Positions 3,752-34,794 of a DNA stretch of 35,737 nt are shown here, one piece after another; the first letter of the stretch is position 1, and each line of letters starts with the position of its first letter. The stretch comes from Lentisphaeria bacterium (GTDB lineage Bacteria > Verrucomicrobiota > Lentisphaeria > Oligosphaerales > Oligosphaeraceae): the NCBI GenBank assembly GCA_024405215.1, contig JAKSPB010000032.1, positions 1 to 35,737 of the forward strand, read 5' to 3'. A program made the position numbers and the translations under genes. Below the pieces are notes generated by a model, which worked only from the letters and a program-made list of their open reading frames with translations, was not told where the DNA came from and did not search any database.

Positions 3752-5167
3752 CTAGGCGATTTGCGTGCCGGCCTCGCGGTTCCAGAAGAGCAGGATGCCC
3801 AGAAGCGTCAGGAGGACGTTCATGGCGATCACGTAAAGGATGCTGTAGCCCATATAGACAGGGGGCAGCGATGCCTCCCGGTTATGGACGGATGTGTCGA
3901 AGTCGGAGCTGGAGAGCGCGTCTGCCATCCAGAAGAGCTGCCAATTGGGAACAGCCGCGTAGATGGCGTTTGCGATCCAATTTCCGTTGACGGGCACGGG
4001 ACGCTCGTAGGTGCCGCCCGTGGGCACGCGGGGGGGATTCACGGAGCGACGGAAGATATACGCCTCGAAATCCTTGTCGGCTTCCTTCTTGGAATCCGCG
4101 AAGTCGCCCAGGTTATGGATGATCCACGAGCCGGTCTTGACGCTGTAGACGCCCATAAGCTGCGCACGGGAAGAAAGATCCTCCACGTTCTTCTTCCAGC
4201 CGTTGCCGTCCTTCCAGGCGCCTTCGGGGTCATTGCCCAGGCCGGGGAGGGAAGGGCTGGAGACGTTGTCGGACCAGACCATGAAGTCCGCATAGTCCTC
4301 CACGCGCATGGGGGCGTTCCAATTCTCGATATTGGCCAGTTCCTTGGGGCTGAAGGTATATTCGCAGATCCAGAGCTGTTCCTTGCCCGGAGGAGGCGTG
4401 CGCTGCCATGGTTCCTTCGCGTTGCGTCCGATGAGGTAGTCGCTCATCAGGCCCAGCAGGAAGATGGCGCCGCAGAGAAGGAGATTGGGGACCAGGCGGA
4501 AACGGGTGGAGAGCGCGGTGGCCAGAGTTCCCATGGACCAGCTGGAGAAGACCACTAGGATCAGGGCGGGGATGACGCGGAAGGCCAGTCCGACGTGGCG
4601 TCCCTGCGCGGGCTTGAACTGTCCGATCAGGGCGAAGATGATCATGGCGACCATCAGCGCGAAGACAGCGGCGCTGCAGAAGGAGGAGCGGGTCACATAG
4701 TTGTACGCGCCGGCTACGGCCAGGGCCAGGATGACGGTCACGAAGAATCCGTAGAACATGAAGTTGTCGATCCAGAACTGGTCGGTGGCGACACGGAGCG
4801 CGATAAGGGTGGCGGTGCCCGTGATGATGCAGAAGACGGTCAAGGCCGCCAAGATGCCCAGGATTTTCGCGATGATGAAGACGGGGCGCTGGACTGGCTT
4901 GGAGAGCAGCAGCAGAGCCATGCCGTTGTCGATTTCCCGGCTGATGGCATAGCTGGAGATCATGATGGCCAGGCCCCATCCGAAGACCATCATGGTGGCG
5001 ATGGAGCTGTCCACCACCAGCTTTTCCTGGGCGAAGAAGACGAAGATGGTGAAGATTGGGTAGAGTCCGATCAGCACCAAGGCGGAAAGCAGAATCAGCA
5101 GGAAGATGGGTTCCCGCAAGGATTCGCGGAACGTGTTCTTTGCGATCTGATAGAGCGAGGTGAACAT
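3752..5167 (-). CDS. ABC-2-type transporter permease with large extracytoplasmic domain
   Basis: 471-residue integral membrane protein. The N-terminus (TSLYQIAKNTFRESLREPIF) is the amphipathic start typical of ABC-2 permeases. Hydrophobic segments follow at roughly 20-45, 58-80, 103-130, 139-160, 168-190, 204-225 and 231-250. Next comes a hydrophilic stretch of about 190 residues, probably extracytoplasmic, and one last membrane helix (SILYVIAMNVLLTLLGILLF) close to the C-terminus. The phrase REIDNGMALLLLSKPV is also typical of this family. The start is the ATG at 5167; a GTG at 5239 would add 24 low-complexity residues. No good Shine-Dalgarno precedes either. An ATPase partner would be expected but is not adjacent. 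Substrate unknown. The lipoprotein gene upstream lies 92 bases away and may be co-transcribed. Confidence 0.8.
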   Translation of the reverse strand: MFTSLYQIAKNTFRESLREPIFLLILLSALVLIGLYPIFTIFVFFAQEKLVVDSSIATMMVFGWGLAIMISSYAISREIDNGMALLLLSKPVQRPVFIIAKILGILAALTVFCIITGTATLIALRVATDQFWIDNFMFYGFFVTVILALAVAGAYNYVTRSSFCSAAVFALMVAMIIFALIGQFKPAQGRHVGLAFRVIPALILVVFSSWSMGTLATALSTRFRLVPNLLLCGAIFLLGLMSDYLIGRNAKEPWQRTPPPGKEQLWICEYTFSPKELANIENWNAPMRVEDYADFMVWSDNVSSPSLPGLGNDPEGAWKDGNGWKKNVEDLSSRAQLMGVYSVKTGSWIIHNLGDFADSKKEADKDFEAYIFRRSVNPPRVPTGGTYERPVPVNGNWIANAIYAAVPNWQLFWMADALSSSDFDTSVHNREASLPPVYMGYSILYVIAMNVLLTLLGILLFWNREAGTQIA

Positions 5168-5259
5168 GGTAGGAGGGGGGCTCGAAAAAGAGGGAAGGGG
5201 CCTGCGGCGGAAGAAGAATCCTTCCGGCGCAGGCGGCACCGAAGAAGAAAAGGCGTGGA

Positions 5260-5784
5260 CTACTGGGCCGGAGTGGCGGGGACGGCCTTCTCCTCGTAGC
5301 GCTGCAGGTATTCCAGATAGAGGCGGTTCAGCTTGGGCTGCTTGAGGATTTCGCCCAGCATCTGGGCGTTGCGGTCCCAGTCGGTGCTGTTCAGGTGCAT
5401 GACGCGGAAATCGTCCTGGACCTGGTTCACGAATTCGGCAGGCACGCAGGATTCGTCACCCAGGAAAATGACGGTCTTGGGATTGAGGTACTTGACGAAG
5501 CCGGCGAATTTTGCGGCGGAGATTTCCTCGCTCTTGTTGCTGGCGGAGAGATAGAAGAGGCGCGGTGCGTCGCTTTCCTCGTCCTGCTCGAAAAGGATGA
5601 TGGGCTGCTTGGAACGGTATTGGGCCAGTTCGCAGAGCAGGCGGGGCTTCAGGTAGTTTCCGGTGACCAGAAGAGTGTTGACACGGGCGCGGGAGCCTTT
5701 CTTGAAGAGGGAGCAGGAGGAACCGGCGACCAAAAGGGTGCAGAGAGCGGCGACAACGGCCAGGCGAGTGAAAAGCTTGTTCAT
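5260..5784 (-). CDS. Small predicted lipoprotein of unknown function
   Basis: 174 residues. It begins with a lipoprotein signal peptide: MNKLFTR, then a hydrophobic stretch ending in LVAGSSC, with the lipidated cysteine near residue 24. The mature part is hydrophilic and reads like a small alpha/beta domain (hydrophobic strands NTLLVTGNY, QPIILFEQD, KTVIFLGDE). I do not recognise a family. It is the first gene of a minus-strand pair with the ABC-2 permease, and the shared location suggests, without proving, a role at the envelope with that permease. The start ATG at 5784 lacks a clear Shine-Dalgarno. Confidence 0.7.
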   Translation of the reverse strand: MNKLFTRLAVVAALCTLLVAGSSCSLFKKGSRARVNTLLVTGNYLKPRLLCELAQYRSKQPIILFEQDEESDAPRLFYLSASNKSEEISAAKFAGFVKYLNPKTVIFLGDESCVPAEFVNQVQDDFRVMHLNSTDWDRNAQMLGEILKQPKLNRLYLEYLQRYEEKAVPATPAQ

Positions 5785-22619: not shown

Positions 22620-23927
22620 TTATTCCTCCCCGTCGAAAATTTCGGCCATCCAGGCTGCAGAGTTTTCAGATGGCTTTTGCCCTATGGTATCCATGACATT
22701 GAAGACGCGCCATGTCACAAAATTCCGTTCACGTCCTTCCAGGCGCAGACGGCATCCCTGGGGATGATCAACGAACCATCCGCCATCAATCTGGCCAGGG
22801 TCACCGAATTCGGCCAGTGCATTGCAAAGGACAAGCGGTTCCTGTGGTTGGCAGTCATCTCCTTGCAGCGGATAAAGCAAAAGTTTTTCACGAATGTTCA
22901 AAGACGGAATTGACTTCCCGCGCCAGTCCGTACGGCTATATTCGTTGGCAACCAAATAAGGTTTGCCAGACCAAGTTGCTCCAACAGTGATTGGCGACAG
23001 CGTATGGAAATATGGTTTTTCAAATACAAGGCGGAATGAATCTGTGCCAGGGCAACCGGTCCAAATACGGCCTCGGCTTGCATCCAAAGGTTCTGGTGAC
23101 CAGGGGTTAGCCCCCCATTCTCGGCATGTGAATACAACATTGCCATTGTTCATTCGCGCCAACGACGGTTCGCAGCCGCTTAGGCCATCACCATCGCTTG
23201 GTGCGGCAAAGAGCGGCGGGTTGTCCCCCTTTTCTGGGGCGATCATTTGGAAACCTGCTGGCTTCCAATCGCCATCGCCGCAGCGGCTCATTCGAAGAAT
23301 GCCGTTGCCGAAGTCTCCAGGAGCTTTTGTCGTAAAGGGAACCAGAATATCCTCGCCATCAAAAACAACAGATGCAAGTCCAGGTCCCACTGCACCTTGA
23401 AAATAGTCCATGGATTTGATGATCTGGCGACTTTTCTCATGCAAAGTGCCGTCCTTATACTCCATTTGGGTAATAATGGCGAACCACCCCTTGTTCTGTG
23501 AATAAACATCGCAGGCACCACTGTCAACGGCCTCCATCGGCAACGTTATGGAAGTTCCCATGCAAAAGCCTGTTCCTGCATGTGGATGAGGGCGTCCATC
23601 AGGCAACAGTTCACCTTCAGGCACAAAGCCAATCATGCTGTCATAGCGCACAAAATACACATCCGAACCATCGACCGGATGCTTTCCGGCAAATGAACGC
23701 AGAAATGTGATCGGCGATGAGGAAGTAAATTCTCCTGGCTTGTCAAAGAGGAAGATGTCATTCCCCAATTCGAAATCGCAGCCTTTTTGCCCCGTCCGCC
23801 GAAGATTTATGACAATGGCTGCACGTTCCTGGGTAACCTGAAAGCATAGAGCCAGGCCGTACACGCCTGTAAGGCCACCTGGCAGCTCGATGCTCTTCCG
23901 AATTTTCCATTTTTTACCAATTTTCAT
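22620..23927 (-). CDS. Sialidase-like/beta-propeller protein without signal peptide
   Basis: 435 residues, no signal peptide or membrane segment. The sequence shows recurring blocks with alternating strands, for example GPGLASVVFDGEDILVPF, GILRMSRCGDGDWKPAG, GCEPSLARMNNGNVVFTCRE, and DSFRLVFEKPYFHTLSP. The phrase EPSLARMNNGNVVFTCRE resembles the blades of BNR/sialidase-superfamily propellers (E-P-x-x-x-x-L-x-x-G-x-L pattern). A glycan-related role is plausible, but no catalytic arginine triad can be assigned. The start ATG at 23927 faces the Gfo/Idh gene divergently across 239 bases. Third-position base use looks more AT-rich than in the neighbours, which may indicate transfer. Confidence 0.65.
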   Translation of the reverse strand: MKIGKKWKIRKSIELPGGLTGVYGLALCFQVTQERAAIVINLRRTGQKGCDFELGNDIFLFDKPGEFTSSSPITFLRSFAGKHPVDGSDVYFVRYDSMIGFVPEGELLPDGRPHPHAGTGFCMGTSITLPMEAVDSGACDVYSQNKGWFAIITQMEYKDGTLHEKSRQIIKSMDYFQGAVGPGLASVVFDGEDILVPFTTKAPGDFGNGILRMSRCGDGDWKPAGFQMIAPEKGDNPPLFAAPSDGDGLSGCEPSLARMNNGNVVFTCREWGANPWSPEPLDASRGRIWTGCPGTDSFRLVFEKPYFHTLSPITVGATWSGKPYLVANEYSRTDWRGKSIPSLNIREKLLLYPLQGDDCQPQEPLVLCNALAEFGDPGQIDGGWFVDHPQGCRLRLEGRERNFVTWRVFNVMDTIGQKPSENSAAWMAEIFDGEE

Positions 23928-27111: not shown

Positions 27112-28182
27112 CTAACAACTATTCCCAGGCGCCGCAACAGATGCGCGTTTGATGAGCAGCGGTTGCAGGCGTTGCTGCAGAAACACTTCGCCACGCATGC
27201 GGCGGAACGCCTGGGGAATTGCCTGCAGCAGCTTTTCCGTCAGTTCGGTCACGGGATAGCGCACCGTTGTCATGGCGGGGGACAGGAAGGCGCAGCCGTG
27301 TGTGTCATCGAATCCCACGAGGCTGAAGTCCCGCGGGATTTCCAGATTATAGTCAAAGGCGTAATCATACAAGTCCATTGCCATCGGATAGCGCATACAG
27401 GCAAAGGCGGTGACCTTATGCGTGAGGGCGAATTCATTGAAATAGAGTTCGGAAATATGCCGATAGTCAAGGCAGGCGGGAATCCAAGGACGCTCCAAGG
27501 CGATATCCCGTTCGCCCAGATAGTCGGACAATCCTCGGAAACGCTCTTCGAATTCCGGATAGTCGTCGCGGTTCAATACGGCGGTGATTTTCCGATGTCC
27601 CGCCTGATAGAGGGTTTCCCCCATCAGGCGCCCTGCCTGATAGTTGTCGGGCATCAGCCAATTGGCGAAATTGACGTTGAAGTTGATGGCGATAATGTTA
27701 TGGGAGCACTCGCTGATCTTCTTCAGAAGTCCCGGTGCAAGGAAGAGGCCGAAAACGACAACTACATCCGTTTCCTTGAAACGCTCGGGCAGGCGTGGAT
27801 TCGTTCCGGCCGTCACGAACATCCTGATGACTGTCGTATTGCCAAAGCGGCTGATGATGCCCTCGATCATCGTCCGATAGGTCAGATTGACATAGCCATC
27901 TGAGTTCATTAGCAAAATGATTCTGCGCGAGGCGGTATCCTTATCGTCATTCTGCTCCGTGACAGATACATAGACCTGGCGATTGTCACGCGTCAAGACG
28001 CCAAGGCGTACCAGCTCTTCCAGATTCTTGTGGACAGTCGGACGGCTGAAACCGTATTTCACGCACAAGGTCCGCTCCGACGGCAACTTCTCTCCAGGCG
28101 AATAGACACCATTGTTGATGTCTTGCATCAGAAGCATCCCGAAGCTGTTCTTCTTCAGATTCTCCGCAAAATCAAATTCCAT
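27112..28182 (-). CDS. GntR/LacI-hybrid transcriptional regulator
   Basis: 356 residues. The N-terminal winged helix (about 8-72) shows the GntR pattern SPGEKLPSERTLCVKYGFSR followed by PTVHKNLEELVRLGVL. The remainder (from RRIILLMNSDGY) is a LacI/periplasmic-binding-type sensor domain, with WLMPDNYQAGRLMGETL, SLVGFDDTHGCAFL and MTTVRYPVTELTEKLL, as in AraR-type repressors that bind a sugar. It is divergent from the pseudopilin gene across a region full of TTACCA/TGGTAA boxes, the likely operators. The ATG at 28182 has GGGAG 6 bases upstream, while the ATG at 28188 directly abuts it, so I chose 28182. The ligand is unknown. Confidence 0.9.
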   Translation of the reverse strand: MEFDFAENLKKNSFGMLLMQDINNGVYSPGEKLPSERTLCVKYGFSRPTVHKNLEELVRLGVLTRDNRQVYVSVTEQNDDKDTASRRIILLMNSDGYVNLTYRTMIEGIISRFGNTTVIRMFVTAGTNPRLPERFKETDVVVVFGLFLAPGLLKKISECSHNIIAINFNVNFANWLMPDNYQAGRLMGETLYQAGHRKITAVLNRDDYPEFEERFRGLSDYLGERDIALERPWIPACLDYRHISELYFNEFALTHKVTAFACMRYPMAMDLYDYAFDYNLEIPRDFSLVGFDDTHGCAFLSPAMTTVRYPVTELTEKLLQAIPQAFRRMRGEVFLQQRLQPLLIKRASVAAPGNSC

Positions 28183-28264
28183 TGTCATCTCCCATGGTGC
28201 TCCTAAAGGCGAGAACGCAGAATGTCCTCTTCTCTTGGTAGTTGTTTAATTGTGTCGTTTGGAT

Positions 28265-28628: not shown

Positions 28629-29477
28629 ATGAAGAAATCCTTCACACTGATTGAATTGCTGGTGGTCATCGCCATCATCGCCATCCTGGCCAGCATGCTT
28701 CTCCCCGCGCTTTCCAAGGCCCGCGAGAAGGCCCGTGCCATCAGCTGCATCAACAACCTGAAGCAGGTCCAGCTTGGCAACATCCTGTATGCCAACGATT
28801 CTGACGATTATCTGCTTCCCATCTGCTACTCCGCCAAGGATCCCAGCCAGACTGGCTGGGCAGCCCGCAACGACTATCTGACCAACTGGCGTTCCGCGAC
28901 CTGGAACAGCCTGAATCCCCTGCTGCCCGGCGCTCCCATGTACGGCGACGAGTTCCTGGCCAAGGACCCCCGTGCGAAGATGACCCCGACCAATGCTCCC
29001 GATGGCACTGACGGCTCCAGCTGGCACAAGTTCTACATGTGCCCCTCCTGCCCCACCAGCGACCGCGCCGGCATGAACTGCTCCTATCAGTGCAATCTGG
29101 GCATGGGTTTCAACGAGGAAATCTATGCCAGCGGCACCATGGATGAAGACAGTGCGCAGTGCAACAAGTCCGCCACCTGGCACCGCATCGCTTCCATCAA
29201 GTATCCCAGCATCTACGTGAACTTCCTGGATGGCGTTGGCATTGAAAGCAATGGCATCACCAATTGGGCCACTCCCGGCGACCTGATGGCCCGCGGCATT
29301 GAAGTCAAGGCCAAGTACTTCCGCCATAGCAACAACTGCAACTTCGCCCTGGGCGACGGCCACGTGGAGGCTGTGAGCATTTCCAAGGCTGTTGACGGTA
29401 CCACCGAGGGCTATCTGCGCCGCGCCTACTACTGGTATCCCGGCACCCAGGCTTGGGGTGGTGACAAGAACCGCTAA
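28629..29477 (+). CDS. Type II/IV pseudopilin-like protein with H-X9-DG tail
   Basis: 282 residues. The N-terminus [19 protein letters not shown] is the prepilin cleavage/methylation helix, with Glu at +5. The position before Phe is Ser rather than the usual Gly. [12 protein letters not shown] and INNLKQ follow, a pattern shared by the large DUF1559-like pseudopilin families of PVC bacteria. Near the C-terminus His233 is followed nine residues later by Asp-Gly (243-244, in GDGHVEAV), the H-X9-DG signature. The protein would insert in the inner membrane and be assembled or secreted by a type II/IV-like system; its real role is unknown. AAGGAG precedes the start, and a TTACCAA box (28620-28626) lies between them. 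It has its own promoter and terminator. Confidence 0.9.
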
Positions 29478-29498
29478 TCGTTTCGTCTGTTTGCAATT

Positions 29499-29540
29499 CA
29501 TGTCTCCATGGCGCATGCCGTGGGACATGGATTTTTTGTT
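29499..29540 (+). terminator. Intrinsic terminator after the pseudopilin gene
   Basis: CATGTCTCCATGGC (29499-29512) pairs with GCCGTGGGACATG (29517-29529): 13 pairs, one bulged T, one G-U, and loop GCAT. GATTTTTTGTTTC follows. Only about 30 bases remain to the next start codon, so downstream expression would need read-through or a promoter inside the pseudopilin gene. Confidence 0.85.
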
Positions 29541-29569
29541 TCTTGCATTTTTCCTCTTGTTTTTCTGCC

Positions 29570-32041
29570 ATGAAAAGAATCCTGTTGGCTCTTCTGGCTG
29601 GAGTATCGCTCATGGGTGCCATGAAACCGAATGAAAATCTTCTCCTGAATGGAGATTTTGAAGAACTCCAGCTGGGCTTCCCGCCCTATTGGGAACGAAC
29701 CGATTTCCAAGATATGATTTTCCTTTGGACAGAGGGACCGGAAGCCTCCGGCGTCCTCCGTTTCCAGAGCAGTGGCATTTCCAAGACCCGTCCTGTCGTC
29801 ATGCAAAAAGGAACCCGATTGGTTCCCGGCGAAAGATATTCCCTCTCCATTCTGGTCCGCGCCAATGACTTCCGGGCGTCCAAGGTCTGCTTTGGGCTGA
29901 GGCCATCTTCCGACGAAAACGCCAATTGGACCGGAATTTCCGAATTCCCGGAAAACTGCGACGAATGGACGGAACTCCATTTTGAACTGACCGCGCCGCC
30001 CTCCCCGAACGGCAAATACGATGTCGCCATTTTCCTGGAACGCTTCTCCGGGCGCCTGGACGTGGCCCAAGCCCGTCTGCACGCCCTGTCGGACAAGGCC
30101 CTGGCCTATTCGCTCCCCACGGAAGGAGTCTCCTTTGAGACCCCACCTCGCATTTTCCCCTATTCGCCACTGTTGCAGGAGATCCCGGCAGAGAAGCCAG
30201 TTCTGTTTTTCCGACGCGGTGGTTTTTCCCGAAGCATTGCCGATGACCCCGCGAGAGAATTGGAGGCGGTCTTCGCCGTGGACGGCGTTGAAATCGCCAG
30301 AATGGCGGCGACGGAAGAAATCCCCTGCCCCTTGGCTGGAATCCCCCAGGGAACCCATTTGCTCCATGTGGAATTGCGCAGAAAAGACAACGGCGAGACC
30401 ATTTTCCGGCGAGATCATGAAATCCGCATCGTTTCCGCCCCTTCCTGGAATCCCACTCCGGGCAGACGTCTGAACAACTTCGTGGTGGAACTTCTGAATC
30501 GGGAGTTCAAAGCGGAAGAACAGGAAGAAATCGTGCTTGCACAGGAGAAATGGCTCTTTGTCCAGGCAGAAAATGGGCTCCTTCTGGATGGCGAGATCCT
30601 CGACGGCGAAAATTTCCGACTGCTTGCGGCAGGCCCACATGTCCTGAAGGCCCTCGTGGATGGACACGTCGTTGTCCGCGCCGTTTCAGAGATCTTCCAC
30701 AGCGCGGTCTGCGAAAGCAACCATGTTCGGCAGAATTCGCGCTACGACTGGAAGTTCTCGCGCAAATACGTTTTCCCGGCCTTGACGACCGCAAATCGCT
30801 TTGCCTGCCCCGAAGAACACCTGGAGGAATGGAAGGCAGGAAAACTGCGCTGGCTGGGAAACATCGTCACCGTGGACGCAAAGGATGCCGCGGATTTCCG
30901 AAAGCGTCTGGATGACTCCAAAGAACTGCACGACGCCCTCCACAATGGCGTGACGCTGGACGAGCACTACTACTCCCAGGACGTCATGCCCGCCGTGGCA
31001 GACGTGCTATGGAACTACCCGGTACCGGCAGGCAAGCTGCTCTACACATGGACCACCGGCCTGCCCGACATCCACAACGCCATCGCCCTGGAACACATCT
31101 CCGCCGTCTTCAATTCGGCAAAGAGCAAGTCGCTTCTGCTGGTGGAATCCTACTGCGCCAGCCAGGAGACGCAGAAACTCATGTCGGAATACCTCCATCG
31201 GCGCCTGAACCATTGCTACAACGCCTACAAAGCGGCAAATCCGGCCGCGCCCCGGAAGGTCGCCCTGATTCTCGGCAATTTCTCGCAGCCGCCGCTCTAT
31301 TCGCTGGACGCGCTTCCCGAAGTGGATTTCAAATACGCCCTGGACATGCAGCTGCATCATCTGGCCACGGATCCGGATTTCGTGGATATGCCGGCCATCG
31401 GATATTGGGGAAACCACTACACCACCGAAGAGATGTACCGCTGGTCCGCGAAGCTCCTCCGGCACTACTGCGTCGAAGGAAAGACGACTTTGCTTTCCGA
31501 GGAGTTTGGCTTCCAATACCTCCCTGGACATCTTCATAACGGAGACTTCCGGGAGCATTTCGAGAAGTGGGAGGTGCGCACAGGCAAAGGCGGACAAGCG
31601 CGGTGGGATGTAGTCTCCGCGCTCTACGGACGACTTCGCTGGGGCTCCCAGGTCCAGAACGGAACCACTTGCTGCGTCTTCGTCCGCGGAGAGACTGCCT
31701 CCCAGGTCAGCCAGCGCATCACGGGCCTCACTCCCGGACGCCCCTATGTCCTGCAATTCGTCACCGGCGATTACGACTCCCTGCGCAAAGGACAGTATGT
31801 CAACAGGACGCATCATGTGGACGCGACCCTCAGCGAAGAGGTGGATACCCTCTCCCGATTCCTGATCGATGGCTCATTGGCGCTTAGCGACTGGGATCGT
31901 CACAGCGTAAAAATCCATTACTGGCGCTTCATTCCCAAGACAGACAGCATGACCGTCACCTTCTCCGATGAAACTGCAGAACCGGGAGACAGCTTCACTT
32001 TGAACTACATTTCCGTCAAACCTTATTTTGCCGCGGAATAG
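29570..32041 (+). CDS. Large secreted protein, possible glycoside hydrolase with two carbohydrate-binding-like domains
   Basis: 823 residues with a signal peptide (MKRILLALLAGVSLMGA). The N-terminal domain opens NLLLNGDFEELQLGFPPYW, the pattern of CBM4/9-like carbohydrate-binding modules. A second such block, HNGDFREHFEKWEV, starts near residue 655 and leads into a C-terminal beta-sandwich. In between, after a beta-rich region (GPHVLKALVDGHVVVRAV), lies a section that looks like a TIM barrel. It has TLDEHYYSQD near 463 and LLSEEFGFQY near 642, acidic residues in places where an acid/base and a nucleophile could sit. I cannot assign a GH family. No Shine-Dalgarno is obvious at the ATG at 29570. 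The position behind the pseudopilin gene suggests shared control by the GntR/LacI regulator. Confidence 0.7.
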   Translation: MKRILLALLAGVSLMGAMKPNENLLLNGDFEELQLGFPPYWERTDFQDMIFLWTEGPEASGVLRFQSSGISKTRPVVMQKGTRLVPGERYSLSILVRANDFRASKVCFGLRPSSDENANWTGISEFPENCDEWTELHFELTAPPSPNGKYDVAIFLERFSGRLDVAQARLHALSDKALAYSLPTEGVSFETPPRIFPYSPLLQEIPAEKPVLFFRRGGFSRSIADDPARELEAVFAVDGVEIARMAATEEIPCPLAGIPQGTHLLHVELRRKDNGETIFRRDHEIRIVSAPSWNPTPGRRLNNFVVELLNREFKAEEQEEIVLAQEKWLFVQAENGLLLDGEILDGENFRLLAAGPHVLKALVDGHVVVRAVSEIFHSAVCESNHVRQNSRYDWKFSRKYVFPALTTANRFACPEEHLEEWKAGKLRWLGNIVTVDAKDAADFRKRLDDSKELHDALHNGVTLDEHYYSQDVMPAVADVLWNYPVPAGKLLYTWTTGLPDIHNAIALEHISAVFNSAKSKSLLLVESYCASQETQKLMSEYLHRRLNHCYNAYKAANPAAPRKVALILGNFSQPPLYSLDALPEVDFKYALDMQLHHLATDPDFVDMPAIGYWGNHYTTEEMYRWSAKLLRHYCVEGKTTLLSEEFGFQYLPGHLHNGDFREHFEKWEVRTGKGGQARWDVVSALYGRLRWGSQVQNGTTCCVFVRGETASQVSQRITGLTPGRPYVLQFVTGDYDSLRKGQYVNRTHHVDATLSEEVDTLSRFLIDGSLALSDWDRHSVKIHYWRFIPKTDSMTVTFSDETAEPGDSFTLNYISVKPYFAAE

Positions 32042-32206: not shown

Positions 32207-33010
32207 ATGAGTGCTTCTTCTGAATTTCAGCGGCTGGCGGATGTAGTCCGTCGCCTGCGCCAGCCTGACGGCTGCCCTTGGGACAAATTCCAGACACACG
32301 ATTCCATCAAGCGGAATCTCGTGGAGGAATCCGGCGAGTTTCTGGATGCGCTGGAGGACCGCAATCTGGAGGGAATGCGCGAAGAGCTGGGCGACCTGAT
32401 GCTCCAGGTCCTCTTCCACGCGCAGATCGCCTCGGAACAGGGCGAGTTCACGCTGGAGGAAATCTGCAAGGAGGAGGCGGACAAGCTGATCCGGCGCCAT
32501 CCACACGTCTTCGGCGAGAATCACGCCGACAACGCGGTGGAGGCGCTGAATCGGTGGGAGCAGTCCAAAGTGGGCGAAGCGGGCGAACAGTCCCGTCGCA
32601 AGTCCGTGATGGACGGCGTGCCGCGCTCCATGCCGGGGCTCTCCCGCGCCCAGAAGGCGCAGACGAAGGCCGGTAGAAACGGCTTCGAATGGCCCGAGGC
32701 GACGCGGCTGCAGGATGCTCTCGCAAAGGTGGACGAGGAGCTTGCGGAAGTGAAGGAGGCCCTTGCGGAGGACAATGCCGAACACGTGGCCGAGGAACTG
32801 GGCGACCTGCTCTTCGTGGTGACGAATGTGGCGCGGATTCGCGGCCTGGAGGGCGAAGAGCTGCTTCACGCGGCCGTCCGCAAGTTCATCCGCCGTTTCC
32901 AGTATATGGAGAAAGCCACTGCCGAGGCCGGCTGCAAAATGACCGACAACTCTTCCGCGGAATGGACCGCCCTCTGGCAGAAAGCCAAGAAGGACGCATC
33001 ACTTCGATAA
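32207..33010 (+). CDS. mazG: Nucleoside triphosphate pyrophosphohydrolase MazG
   Basis: 267-residue all-alpha NTP pyrophosphatase that converts NTPs to NMPs and PPi, a house-cleaning role. The start is typical: LADVVRRLRQPDGCPWDKFQTHDSI, then the metal-binding helices EESGEFLDAL and EELGDLMLQVLFHAQ. The second repeat carries KVDEELAEVKEAL and EELGDLLFVVTNVAR. Both MazG repeats are present, as in E. coli MazG (263 aa). The start is the ATG at 32207. The 165-base gap in front contains no convincing terminator or promoter. A different frame within this gene stays open into the next gene, but it is not coding. Confidence 0.97.
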   Translation: MSASSEFQRLADVVRRLRQPDGCPWDKFQTHDSIKRNLVEESGEFLDALEDRNLEGMREELGDLMLQVLFHAQIASEQGEFTLEEICKEEADKLIRRHPHVFGENHADNAVEALNRWEQSKVGEAGEQSRRKSVMDGVPRSMPGLSRAQKAQTKAGRNGFEWPEATRLQDALAKVDEELAEVKEALAEDNAEHVAEELGDLLFVVTNVARIRGLEGEELLHAAVRKFIRRFQYMEKATAEAGCKMTDNSSAEWTALWQKAKKDASLR

Positions 33011-33078
33011 AATACAACATACAACTGAGTCTTTTGCAAAAGTCTCAACTACTCCCGAAATCGAAAACAACTTCAATC

Positions 33079-34794
33079 ATGGCAAATTTCTGTTATCAAC
33101 CCATCGTCGCCGCAGAATTGTGGAAGCGGCGTTCCCTGCTGGAACTCTATCCCTTTGACGGCGGCGGCGGATTCATCAACCGCGCCCTGCTCGGCTCCAT
33201 CGACGACCGTGAAATCCGCCGCAAGTTCCTTTCCGGCGAACTCTCCAAGTTCGTGGATTTCCCGAATATGGATTTCCACCGCTATGAGCGCTGGCGCTCC
33301 ATCGAGCTGAGCTGCTGGATCAACCGCTGCTATCTGGTTGCCTGTCTGGCGCACGCCGCGTGGCTGGAGAAGGACAAGGCCCTGGCCAACATCCTGAAGG
33401 ACACCATGCTGCACTTTATCGACACCTGCCCGCCTCCCGGAAACGGCGACCCGAAGGAGCTGGAGGCCCACTGGCAGCGCGTCCTGTATCGGATGAACCA
33501 CGACTACAACGAAAAGACCTACGCCGAATACAGTGTCGACGAGACGGACGTGGAATACATCTGGTATGACTTCCAGCCCGCAAGCCGCGTCATCCATTTC
33601 CTGCACACGCTCTATTTCATCAAGGACCTGGCGGATTTCAAGCCCGGCGAATTCGATCGCATCTTGGACGGCATCCGGCTGCACGGGCACATCCTCTATC
33701 TGCAGGAAAAGGCCCATCCCCATAAAAAGGGAAACCACCAGTCCGTCCGCCAGATCGGGCTTCTTCATGTCGCATCAGCCTTTGAAGAAGACGACGAGAT
33801 CCGCGAATGGAAGAAGCTGGCGCTGAACCGCAGCGCCTGGCACGCAACAACCGACTTCTTCGAAAACGGCGTCCTCTTCGAGGGCTCCCCCTCCTACCAC
33901 TCCTTCGAGACGTGGCATGGCCGCGATGCCATGGCGTTTGCCAAACTCTTCGGAATGCCGCTGGAGCCCGAGGCGGAGCGTCGTTTCAAGCTGGCCGGAG
34001 AGGTCCTGGCGACCTACCGCCGCCCCGACGGCAAGACGCTCGTCATCAACGACGCCTATCCGCTGCTGCCCGACGGCCTGCTGGAGTCCATGGGCATTGA
34101 TGCGCAGGCACAGCCGAAGACCTCCTACCTGGGGTTGGGCGGCCTGGCGGTCTGGCGCGGAAAACGCCTCTACGCCGCACTGGATGTCTCTTCCTTCACG
34201 GGACAGTTCTCACACTACCACGGTGGAAAGAACGCGCTGATGCTTTTCGTGGACGGCGAGGCCTTCCTGGATGATCCAGGCTGCTGCAATTACGACGATT
34301 CCAGCTTCCGCACCTGCAAGCAGGCGACCGCCCATAGCTCCATGATGGTGGACGATACGCCAGACGCCCATTCCTTCAGCCTCTACGGCTGGGATTCCTA
34401 TCCGGAATTCCTCCTGAAACCCTGGGACGGGAACCGCTTCCAGGCGGTCATGCACTCCACTACGCCCGAATGGAAGGACGTGGAATGGAGCCGCGAAATC
34501 GTCTGCGAAGAGGACGCCTTGACCTTGAACGACGTCGTGTCCGCGCCATTGGAACACGTCTATGAGCTGCACTTCACCCTCGCCCCCGGCATCGCCATCC
34601 GCAAGAGCGACGACGGCTTCGTGCTGCAGAGCGCAAAGAACACGCTGGAGATTCTGCTGAAAGGCGACTTTACCTGCGAAATCGTCGATGGCGAGAACTA
34701 CCAGACCGAGCCCGCCCTGCCCGTCAAACAGCTGCGCTTGAAATTCCCCCAGGCGGCTCTGATGAAAAACACCATCCGGTTCGTGGTGAAATAA
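33079..34794 (+). CDS. Heparinase II/III-like polysaccharide lyase, no signal peptide
   Basis: 571 residues. The N-terminal part is helical, as expected for an alpha/alpha toroid, and contains KKGNHQSVRQIGLL near residue 217, the catalytic-type Asn-His region of heparinase II/III and alginate-lyase families. The C-terminal beta-sandwich has FTGQFSHYHGGKNALMLFVDGE (His near 377), FLDDPGCCNYDD and KQATAHSSMMVDD. This is the classical heparinase II/III pattern with a repeating His-Asp-Gly arrangement. Such enzymes cleave uronic-acid-containing polymers by beta-elimination; the substrate is not known. The N-terminus MANFCYQPIVAAELWKRRS has no signal peptide, implying cytoplasmic action on imported oligosaccharides or a wrong start. 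The ATG at 33079 is preferred over upstream frame extension into mazG. Confidence 0.85.
   Translation: MANFCYQPIVAAELWKRRSLLELYPFDGGGGFINRALLGSIDDREIRRKFLSGELSKFVDFPNMDFHRYERWRSIELSCWINRCYLVACLAHAAWLEKDKALANILKDTMLHFIDTCPPPGNGDPKELEAHWQRVLYRMNHDYNEKTYAEYSVDETDVEYIWYDFQPASRVIHFLHTLYFIKDLADFKPGEFDRILDGIRLHGHILYLQEKAHPHKKGNHQSVRQIGLLHVASAFEEDDEIREWKKLALNRSAWHATTDFFENGVLFEGSPSYHSFETWHGRDAMAFAKLFGMPLEPEAERRFKLAGEVLATYRRPDGKTLVINDAYPLLPDGLLESMGIDAQAQPKTSYLGLGGLAVWRGKRLYAALDVSSFTGQFSHYHGGKNALMLFVDGEAFLDDPGCCNYDDSSFRTCKQATAHSSMMVDDTPDAHSFSLYGWDSYPEFLLKPWDGNRFQAVMHSTTPEWKDVEWSREIVCEEDALTLNDVVSAPLEHVYELHFTLAPGIAIRKSDDGFVLQSAKNTLEILLKGDFTCEIVDGENYQTEPALPVKQLRLKFPQAALMKNTIRFVVK

Follow-up and report, generated by a model that had tools for sequence, protein, structure and literature searches.

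A modular, probably secreted Lentisphaeria protein likely represents a glycoside hydrolase family without a Pfam or NCBIfam model

We analyzed a 35,737-nucleotide stretch of DNA from a Lentisphaeria bacterium (assembly GCA_024405215.1, contig JAKSPB010000032.1; "the window" hereafter means this whole stretch), and within it a gene for an 823-amino-acid protein that is likely a secreted multimodular glycoside hydrolase (GH) of a family for which Pfam and NCBIfam hold no model. The protein has a modular architecture built around a (β/α)8 barrel in which D464, E465, E526 and Y528 are conserved, and in the window's genome its family is linked to pseudopilin genes. We infer that it hydrolyzes glycosidic bonds in a glycan substrate. 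The family is probably new relative to Pfam and NCBIfam models only, as CAZy and dbCAN were not covered. A preliminary description of the sequence had proposed either a new enzyme class or a surface adhesin: the barrel, the glycosidase-type folds that resemble it, and the invariant E465, E526 and Y528 support an enzyme, but a new class goes too far, and the evidence reaches only to the level of a new glycosidase family.

The reading frame is open throughout, and the two NGDF motifs noted in that description, at residues 27-30 and 657-660, stand at conserved positions of a large family (Table 1). A TTG codon 27 bases upstream of the ATG would give an 832-residue reading; we prefer the ATG because the signal-peptide-like stretch begins there, and on this sequence feature the protein is probably exported. 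AlphaFold2 (AF2) modeled the full-length protein with a mean predicted local distance difference test score (pLDDT) of 90 and a predicted template-modeling score (pTM) of 0.89.

Table 1. Positions of the gene, its encoded modules and candidate active-site residues, and flanking features. Positions are those of the window, except in the last row.
Feature	Position	Strand	Basis
Enzyme gene, 823-residue modular protein, probably secreted	29570-32041	+	uninterrupted frame; 69 aligned relatives
Signal-peptide-like N-terminus, residues 1-17	29570-29620	+	judged by eye, not by predictor
N-terminal carbohydrate-binding module, residues 19-182, NGDF at 27-30	29624-30115	+	PF02018, fold matches
Middle β region, residues 192-373	30143-30688	+	AF2 secondary structure; alignment A8
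(β/α)8 barrel, residues 374-656, putative catalytic domain	30689-31537	+	AF2, fold matches
D464-E465, end of β4, putative general acid/base region	30959-30964	+	conservation
E526-S-Y528, end of β6, second invariant acid and Tyr	31145-31153	+	conservation
G611-Y-W613-G614 at β8	31400-31411	+	conservation in 70 rows
C-terminal β-sandwich module, residues 650-823, NGDF at 657-660	31517-32038	+	conserved residues
DUF1559 pseudopilin gene upstream of enzyme gene	28629-29477	+	PF07596, PF07963
GntR/Peripla_BP_3 transcription regulator, divergent, before pseudopilin	27112-28188	-	PF00392, PF13377
Terminator-like hairpin and T-run between pseudopilin and enzyme genes	29495-29540	+	fold of 29478-29569
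Strong hairpins in pilin-enzyme gaps of relatives	L002 4036-4170; L102 7861-8000; L106 1539-1688	- (L002)	

Predicted alone, the barrel gave a pLDDT of 91.5, a pTM of 0.89 and eight strands (residues 375-378, 407-409, 427-432, 460-467, 490-496, 523-527, 564-568 and 610-612). We realigned Foldseek's top 1000 chains to it with VIA-align, which aligned 998. The best 50 of the 998 were glycosidase-type barrels throughout (Z 12.4-14.6, root-mean-square deviation (rmsd) 3.3-4.4 Å, 214-247 residues aligned). Going by their titles, we take 29 of these 50 to be GH18-type (in two cases chitinase-like or GH18-like), 18 to be GH2, two GH84 and one GH20. The highest-scoring match belongs to the GH18 chitinases and endo-β-N-acetylglucosaminidases (3co4, Z 14.6, 236 residues, 3.8 Å), level with the best of the GH2 β-glucuronidases (Z up to 14.2), and the GH20 hexosaminidase 5ac4 matched at Z 12.4.

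Conservation within the barrel points to a candidate active site. In (β/α)8 enzymes the active site lies at the C-terminal ends of the strands, and here entropy was 1.23 at these ends versus 1.50 at the N-terminal ends (rank 6 of 283 circular shifts). E465, E526 and Y528 are invariant across 70 aligned proteins, namely the window protein and 69 relatives 27-38% identical to it (alignment A2), as are W494, G611, W613 and G614; D464 is Asp in 67 rows and Asn in three, and the family's β4 consensus reads DGxTxDE. Among 20 more distant proteins (a second frame at locus L131, an N-terminal partial match, being left out), all 20 retain E465, 18 retain D464, and 19 each retain E526 and Y528; retention falls to 11 for W494, 11 for G611, eight for W613 and six for G614. 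This pattern suggests that the acids and the tyrosine mark a wider superfamily, and the tryptophans the nearer family. Two acidic motifs had been put forward earlier as catalytic candidates. DEHYYSQD holds D464 and E465, a pair conserved across relatives; SEEFGFQY has no such conservation, with E644 in 13 of 70 rows, E645 in 10 and only S643 invariant, and we reject a catalytic role for it. The second invariant acid, E526, and Y528 were absent from that earlier account.

The modules at the two ends resemble sugar-binding domains to different degrees. The N-terminal module belongs to CBM_4_9 (PF02018): it passes the curated Pfam cut-off (35.7 versus 25.9 bits, E 1.3e-8), and the same model matches this module in 23 of 35 rows at E ≤ 1e-3 (alignments A6-A8 took every second row of the 70). 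It folds like the hyaluronan-binding module 4d0q (Z 15.6, 144 residues, 2.8 Å), with matches to CBM16, CBM4 and hyaluronan-binding modules at Z 13-15.6, and in the PDB its profile picked up short chains belonging to GH10 enzymes and to laminarinase 16A (E 7e-4 to 0.024). The C-terminal module, a conserved β-sandwich with the second NGDF block at its opening, is only weakly like a carbohydrate-binding module (CBM): the window copy matched no Pfam family at E ≤ 0.1, PF02018 matched two of 35 rows at that threshold, and its profile found nothing in PDB sequences below E 0.04. Comparison of the two module profiles with hhalign (E 9.6e-5, probability 58.6) is suggestive of a likeness between them. 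N27 of the N-terminal module and D659, F660, W667 and R690 of the C-terminal module are invariant in all 70 rows, and N657 is present in 69. The C-terminal module, too, may bind glycan. Among distant relatives, L123 carries three N-terminal CBM-like stretches and L126 a Laminin_G_3 domain.

No known glycoside hydrolase family could be named for the barrel, as the preliminary description had also held: models, profile comparisons and folds gave no clear match. Not one of the 70 barrels gave a Pfam glycosidase match at E ≤ 1, and the 12 Pfam families listed for these barrels include neither a GH66 model nor that of any other glycosidase; NCBIfam glycosidase models matched none at E ≤ 0.1, and PDB sequence searches with full-length and barrel profiles found nothing below E 0.04. 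With ten distant members as a bridge, no Pfam glycosidase model exceeded its cut-off, and Glyco_hydro_36C (E 0.006) and Glyco_hydro_2_N (E 0.03) appeared beneath it. The models of GH18 (PF00704), GH123 (PF13320, GH123_cat), GH20 (PF00728) and GH2 (PF02836) each matched 0 of 70 barrels; on this and on the profile comparisons below we reject assignment to GH123, GH20 and GH2. The GH18 hallmark, DxxDxDxE on β4, has no counterpart here, and neither position -2 nor position -4 relative to E465 holds a conserved Asp, although the family shares the β4 acid, β6 tyrosine and β8 tryptophan of the GH18 layout. GH2 enzymes place their catalytic acids on β4 and β7, whereas the invariant acids of this family fall on β4 and β6 of the predicted model. 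GH20 enzymes have an adjacent D-E dyad on β4, as does this family.

Several observations weigh against a glycosidase. In plain Foldseek the top matches to the barrel were triosephosphate isomerases (best E 1.6e-4); GH128 chains began at rank 8 and chitinase chains at rank 13, with GH5 chains lower, so the case for glycosidase kinship rests on the second-look alignment and on conservation; with the full chain it gave multi-domain alignments of large rmsd, an insecticidal crystal protein ranking first. The scores of several glycosidase families lie within Z 1-2 of one another, so folds permit no family call. Profile comparison found no similarity to sets of GH123 (E 0.41-0.53), GH20 (E 0.15-0.37) or GH2 (E 0.16-0.38) drawn from related genomes. 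Within-family controls succeeded for GH20 (2.5e-38) and GH123 (5.1e-35), with none for GH2, and comparisons between GH20 and GH123 and between GH2 and GH20 were likewise empty; the method is thus blind to kinship at superfamily level. Neighboring genes, among the families listed (the best 25 of 53 and 25 of 47), are mostly not carbohydrate enzymes. To our knowledge no member has a known activity, and we found no characterized homolog. A literature search found no account of the family, which does not show that none exists. Unclassified glycosidase-like planctomycete proteins have been described (PMC5352709), and those named in the accessible part of that paper are β-propeller and DUF1080 proteins; a member of this family could be among the others.

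In the mechanism we propose, the N-terminal CBM4/9-type module and the C-terminal β-sandwich would keep the enzyme attached to its substrate, either a polysaccharide or the glycan of a glycoprotein, and the central barrel would cleave the bound glycan with E465 on β4 as general acid. The chemistry may follow either of two routes. In a two-carboxylate glycosidase, E465 (or D464) on β4 and E526 on β6 would act as acid/base and nucleophile in a retaining enzyme, or as acid and base in an inverting one, and no N-acetyl group would be needed on the substrate. We regard this route as a serious contender, somewhat short of an even chance. It accords with the invariance of E526, which equals that of E465 in the family and nearly so in distant members. 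GH66 and GH27/31/36 enzymes place their catalytic acids on β4 and β6, and GH66 dextranase chains occupy ranks 6, 11 and 49 of the full-length Foldseek search, but those matches have template-modeling scores of 0.17-0.19 by query length and rmsd near 28 Å over several domains; the best 50 of 998 barrel alignments include no GH66 or GH27/31/36 chain, which does not exclude such kinship.

The second route, substrate-assisted catalysis on an N-acetylhexosaminide by analogy with GH123, we advance tentatively; the two-carboxylate route is at least as likely. Here D464 would orient the N-acetyl group, E465 would protonate the leaving group and Y528 would contact the acetamide. GH123-type enzymes have a conserved D-E motif, a tyrosine (Y392) 65 residues after D327, G427 at β8, W431, and substrate-assisted catalysis (Sumida 2024; PMC11087588). 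Our family is similar in its N-terminal β-sandwich and (β/α)8 barrel, its adjacent D-E pair, the 64 residues in sequence from D464 to Y528, and the Gly and Trp near β8 in its 70 rows. Three differences tell against this route: W613 lies 149 residues after D464, versus 104 in NgaLy; the tryptophan is not robust, being kept in eight of 20 distant rows; and the family has an extra invariant acid, E526, whose invariance substrate assistance leaves unexplained. We downgraded the substrate-assisted reading on the tryptophan check, and treat the likeness of the D-E pair and tyrosine to GH123-type hexosaminidases as a lead, not as membership.

It is unlikely that the protein, instead of being a glycosidase, is an adhesin or another surface protein that binds glycans and whose barrel has no catalytic role. 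Sugar-binding-like modules at both ends and the proximity of four of the six family genes in the window's genome to pseudopilin genes would suit such a protein, and there is precedent in concanavalin B, a chitinase-like barrel without activity that stands at row 24 of our barrel fold table. However, acids and aromatics at the C-terminal strand ends are among the most strictly conserved residues of the barrel, and Pfam gave no anchor domain or adhesin model for the window protein.

There is likewise little chance that the family's activity has been lost in the window copy through its divergence as a relaxed paralog. Its branch is long (1.81 versus a median of 0.18, in a tree built by a quick method that places the window copy unsurely), it departs at 16 of the 117 columns in which the other 69 rows show 90% conservation or more, and two other genomes of its genus (88% and 77% complete) hold no close ortholog (best 34% identity). 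Yet its frame is intact, it keeps E465, E526, Y528 and W613, and two relatives depart at more of the conserved columns (L118 at 20, L122 at 17). The window copy may have shifted specificity.

A polysaccharide lyase, transglycosidase or other non-hydrolytic carbohydrate enzyme with a barrel is improbable as well: a (β/α)8 fold by itself leaves the chemistry unfixed and the window gene has a heparinase II/III-like gene on its 3' side, but a MazG gene separates the two, and heparinase II/III enzymes have another fold. The heparinase-like gene is listed at 32689-34794 (+), with a start that overlaps the MazG gene (32207-33010), so its true start is probably later.

The gene does lie behind a pseudopilin gene, as described previously, and a divergent regulator gene stands before the pseudopilin gene (Table 1). 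PF07596 has 49 matches in the window's genome, including two below its cut-off, and four of the genome's six family genes (on contigs C26, C14, C38 and C11) have one within 1 kb (p ~2.6e-5 from a binomial estimate on the assumption of random placement). Because the choice of the window gene was made with its pilin in view, we also give the count without it, three of five (p ~4.8e-4). Elsewhere, 14 of 73 loci with enough flanking sequence have an open reading frame (ORF) with a pilin-like N-terminus, a count with no background rate for comparison; 10 of these ORFs lie within 1 kb of the family gene, some on the other strand. At L002, a GntR/Peripla_BP regulator gene follows the enzyme gene by 18 bases on the same strand. 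Pilin and enzyme may be functionally paired.

The gap between the window's pilin and enzyme genes folds better than shuffled sequence (z -4.19, 0 of 200 shuffles as good). Three of five other pilin-to-enzyme gaps have strong hairpins (L002 -4.44, L102 -3.37, L106 -4.33); two, folded partly, do not (L075 -0.58, L108 -0.81), nor does the enzyme-to-pilin gap of L003 (-0.59). The predicted hairpins suggest that transcription is terminated or attenuated once past the pilin gene, so that the two genes may not form a single unattenuated transcript.

We surveyed 122 of 129 immediate neighbors of family genes, in sets of 69 and 53, without a control set and hence with no claim of enrichment. DUF1559 occurred in at least five of 69 and at least three of 53, CBM_4_9 in at least five of 69 and DUF4838 in at least three of 69; the families listed include one each of GH127, GH106, GH5, GHL10 and sulfatase. 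Near the family paralog at L003 is a glucuronyl-esterase-like gene (4281-5510, +; PF22244, E 8.7e-21). Within the window, a 435-residue ORF (22620-23927, -) had no Pfam match at E ≤ 0.01.

The family is widespread. The window's genome (2.98 Mb, 82 contigs) carries four further full-length copies (31-33% identity) and one distant copy; the count of six excludes a 103-residue fragment (C60) and a weak match to the CBM only (C13). Matches at E ≤ 1e-10 occur in 30 of 59 related genomes (its own included): all 30 come from the 47 genomes in its own order, and the 12 from other orders of the class have none. The 70-row barrel profile matched 28 of 288 genomes of the phylum, some in other orders and classes. 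A scan of named genome contigs yielded 145 relatives among 167 candidate stretches, of which we kept 79 loci. Their titles name either uncultured bacteria or bins of Lentisphaerota, Kiritimatiellota, Verrucomicrobiota, Planctomycetota or Armatimonadota, and many come from samples of rumen or hindgut. A scan with the single window protein as query found no relatives, and tblastn of that protein against 72,556 plasmid records found no match. Ten of the 79 loci were dropped from alignment A2: L064, L094, L098, L105, L110 and L111 as shorter matches, L070, L084 and L121 for a disrupted reading frame, and L100 as an apparent near-duplicate of L097. The copy at L084 has an internal stop, and those at L070 and L121 have apparent frame breaks, L121 also with unread bases. 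Family copies can be clustered, with four in tandem at L138 (G006:C25:30500-44000) and three in a row on G004:C97 and G014:C332, where a weak GH20-like match lies nearby. Separately, GH123_cat (PF13320) has matches in 28 of the 30 related genomes, with up to 31 in one.

The most specific form of our proposal is rather doubtful as a whole: a new glycoside hydrolase family, from genomes titled as five phyla, that has arrived at the residue layout of a substrate-assisted N-acetylhexosaminidase (D-E on β4, Tyr on β6) without detectable sequence kinship to GH18, GH20 or GH123, and that is in some lineages paired with a dedicated DUF1559 pseudopilin that would serve glycan capture as the enzyme cuts.

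DUF1559 proteins have been described as exclusive to the Planctomycetes-Verrucomicrobia-Chlamydiae (PVC) superphylum, and in Planctomycetes they make up some of the largest gene families (PMC4807772). If the family is a glycosidase, its recurrent pseudopilin neighborhood would offer a testable role for them, a widespread glycan-degrading family of gut and environmental bacteria is missing from the Pfam and NCBIfam libraries we tested, and the carbohydrate diet of genomes that carry several copies would be undercounted.

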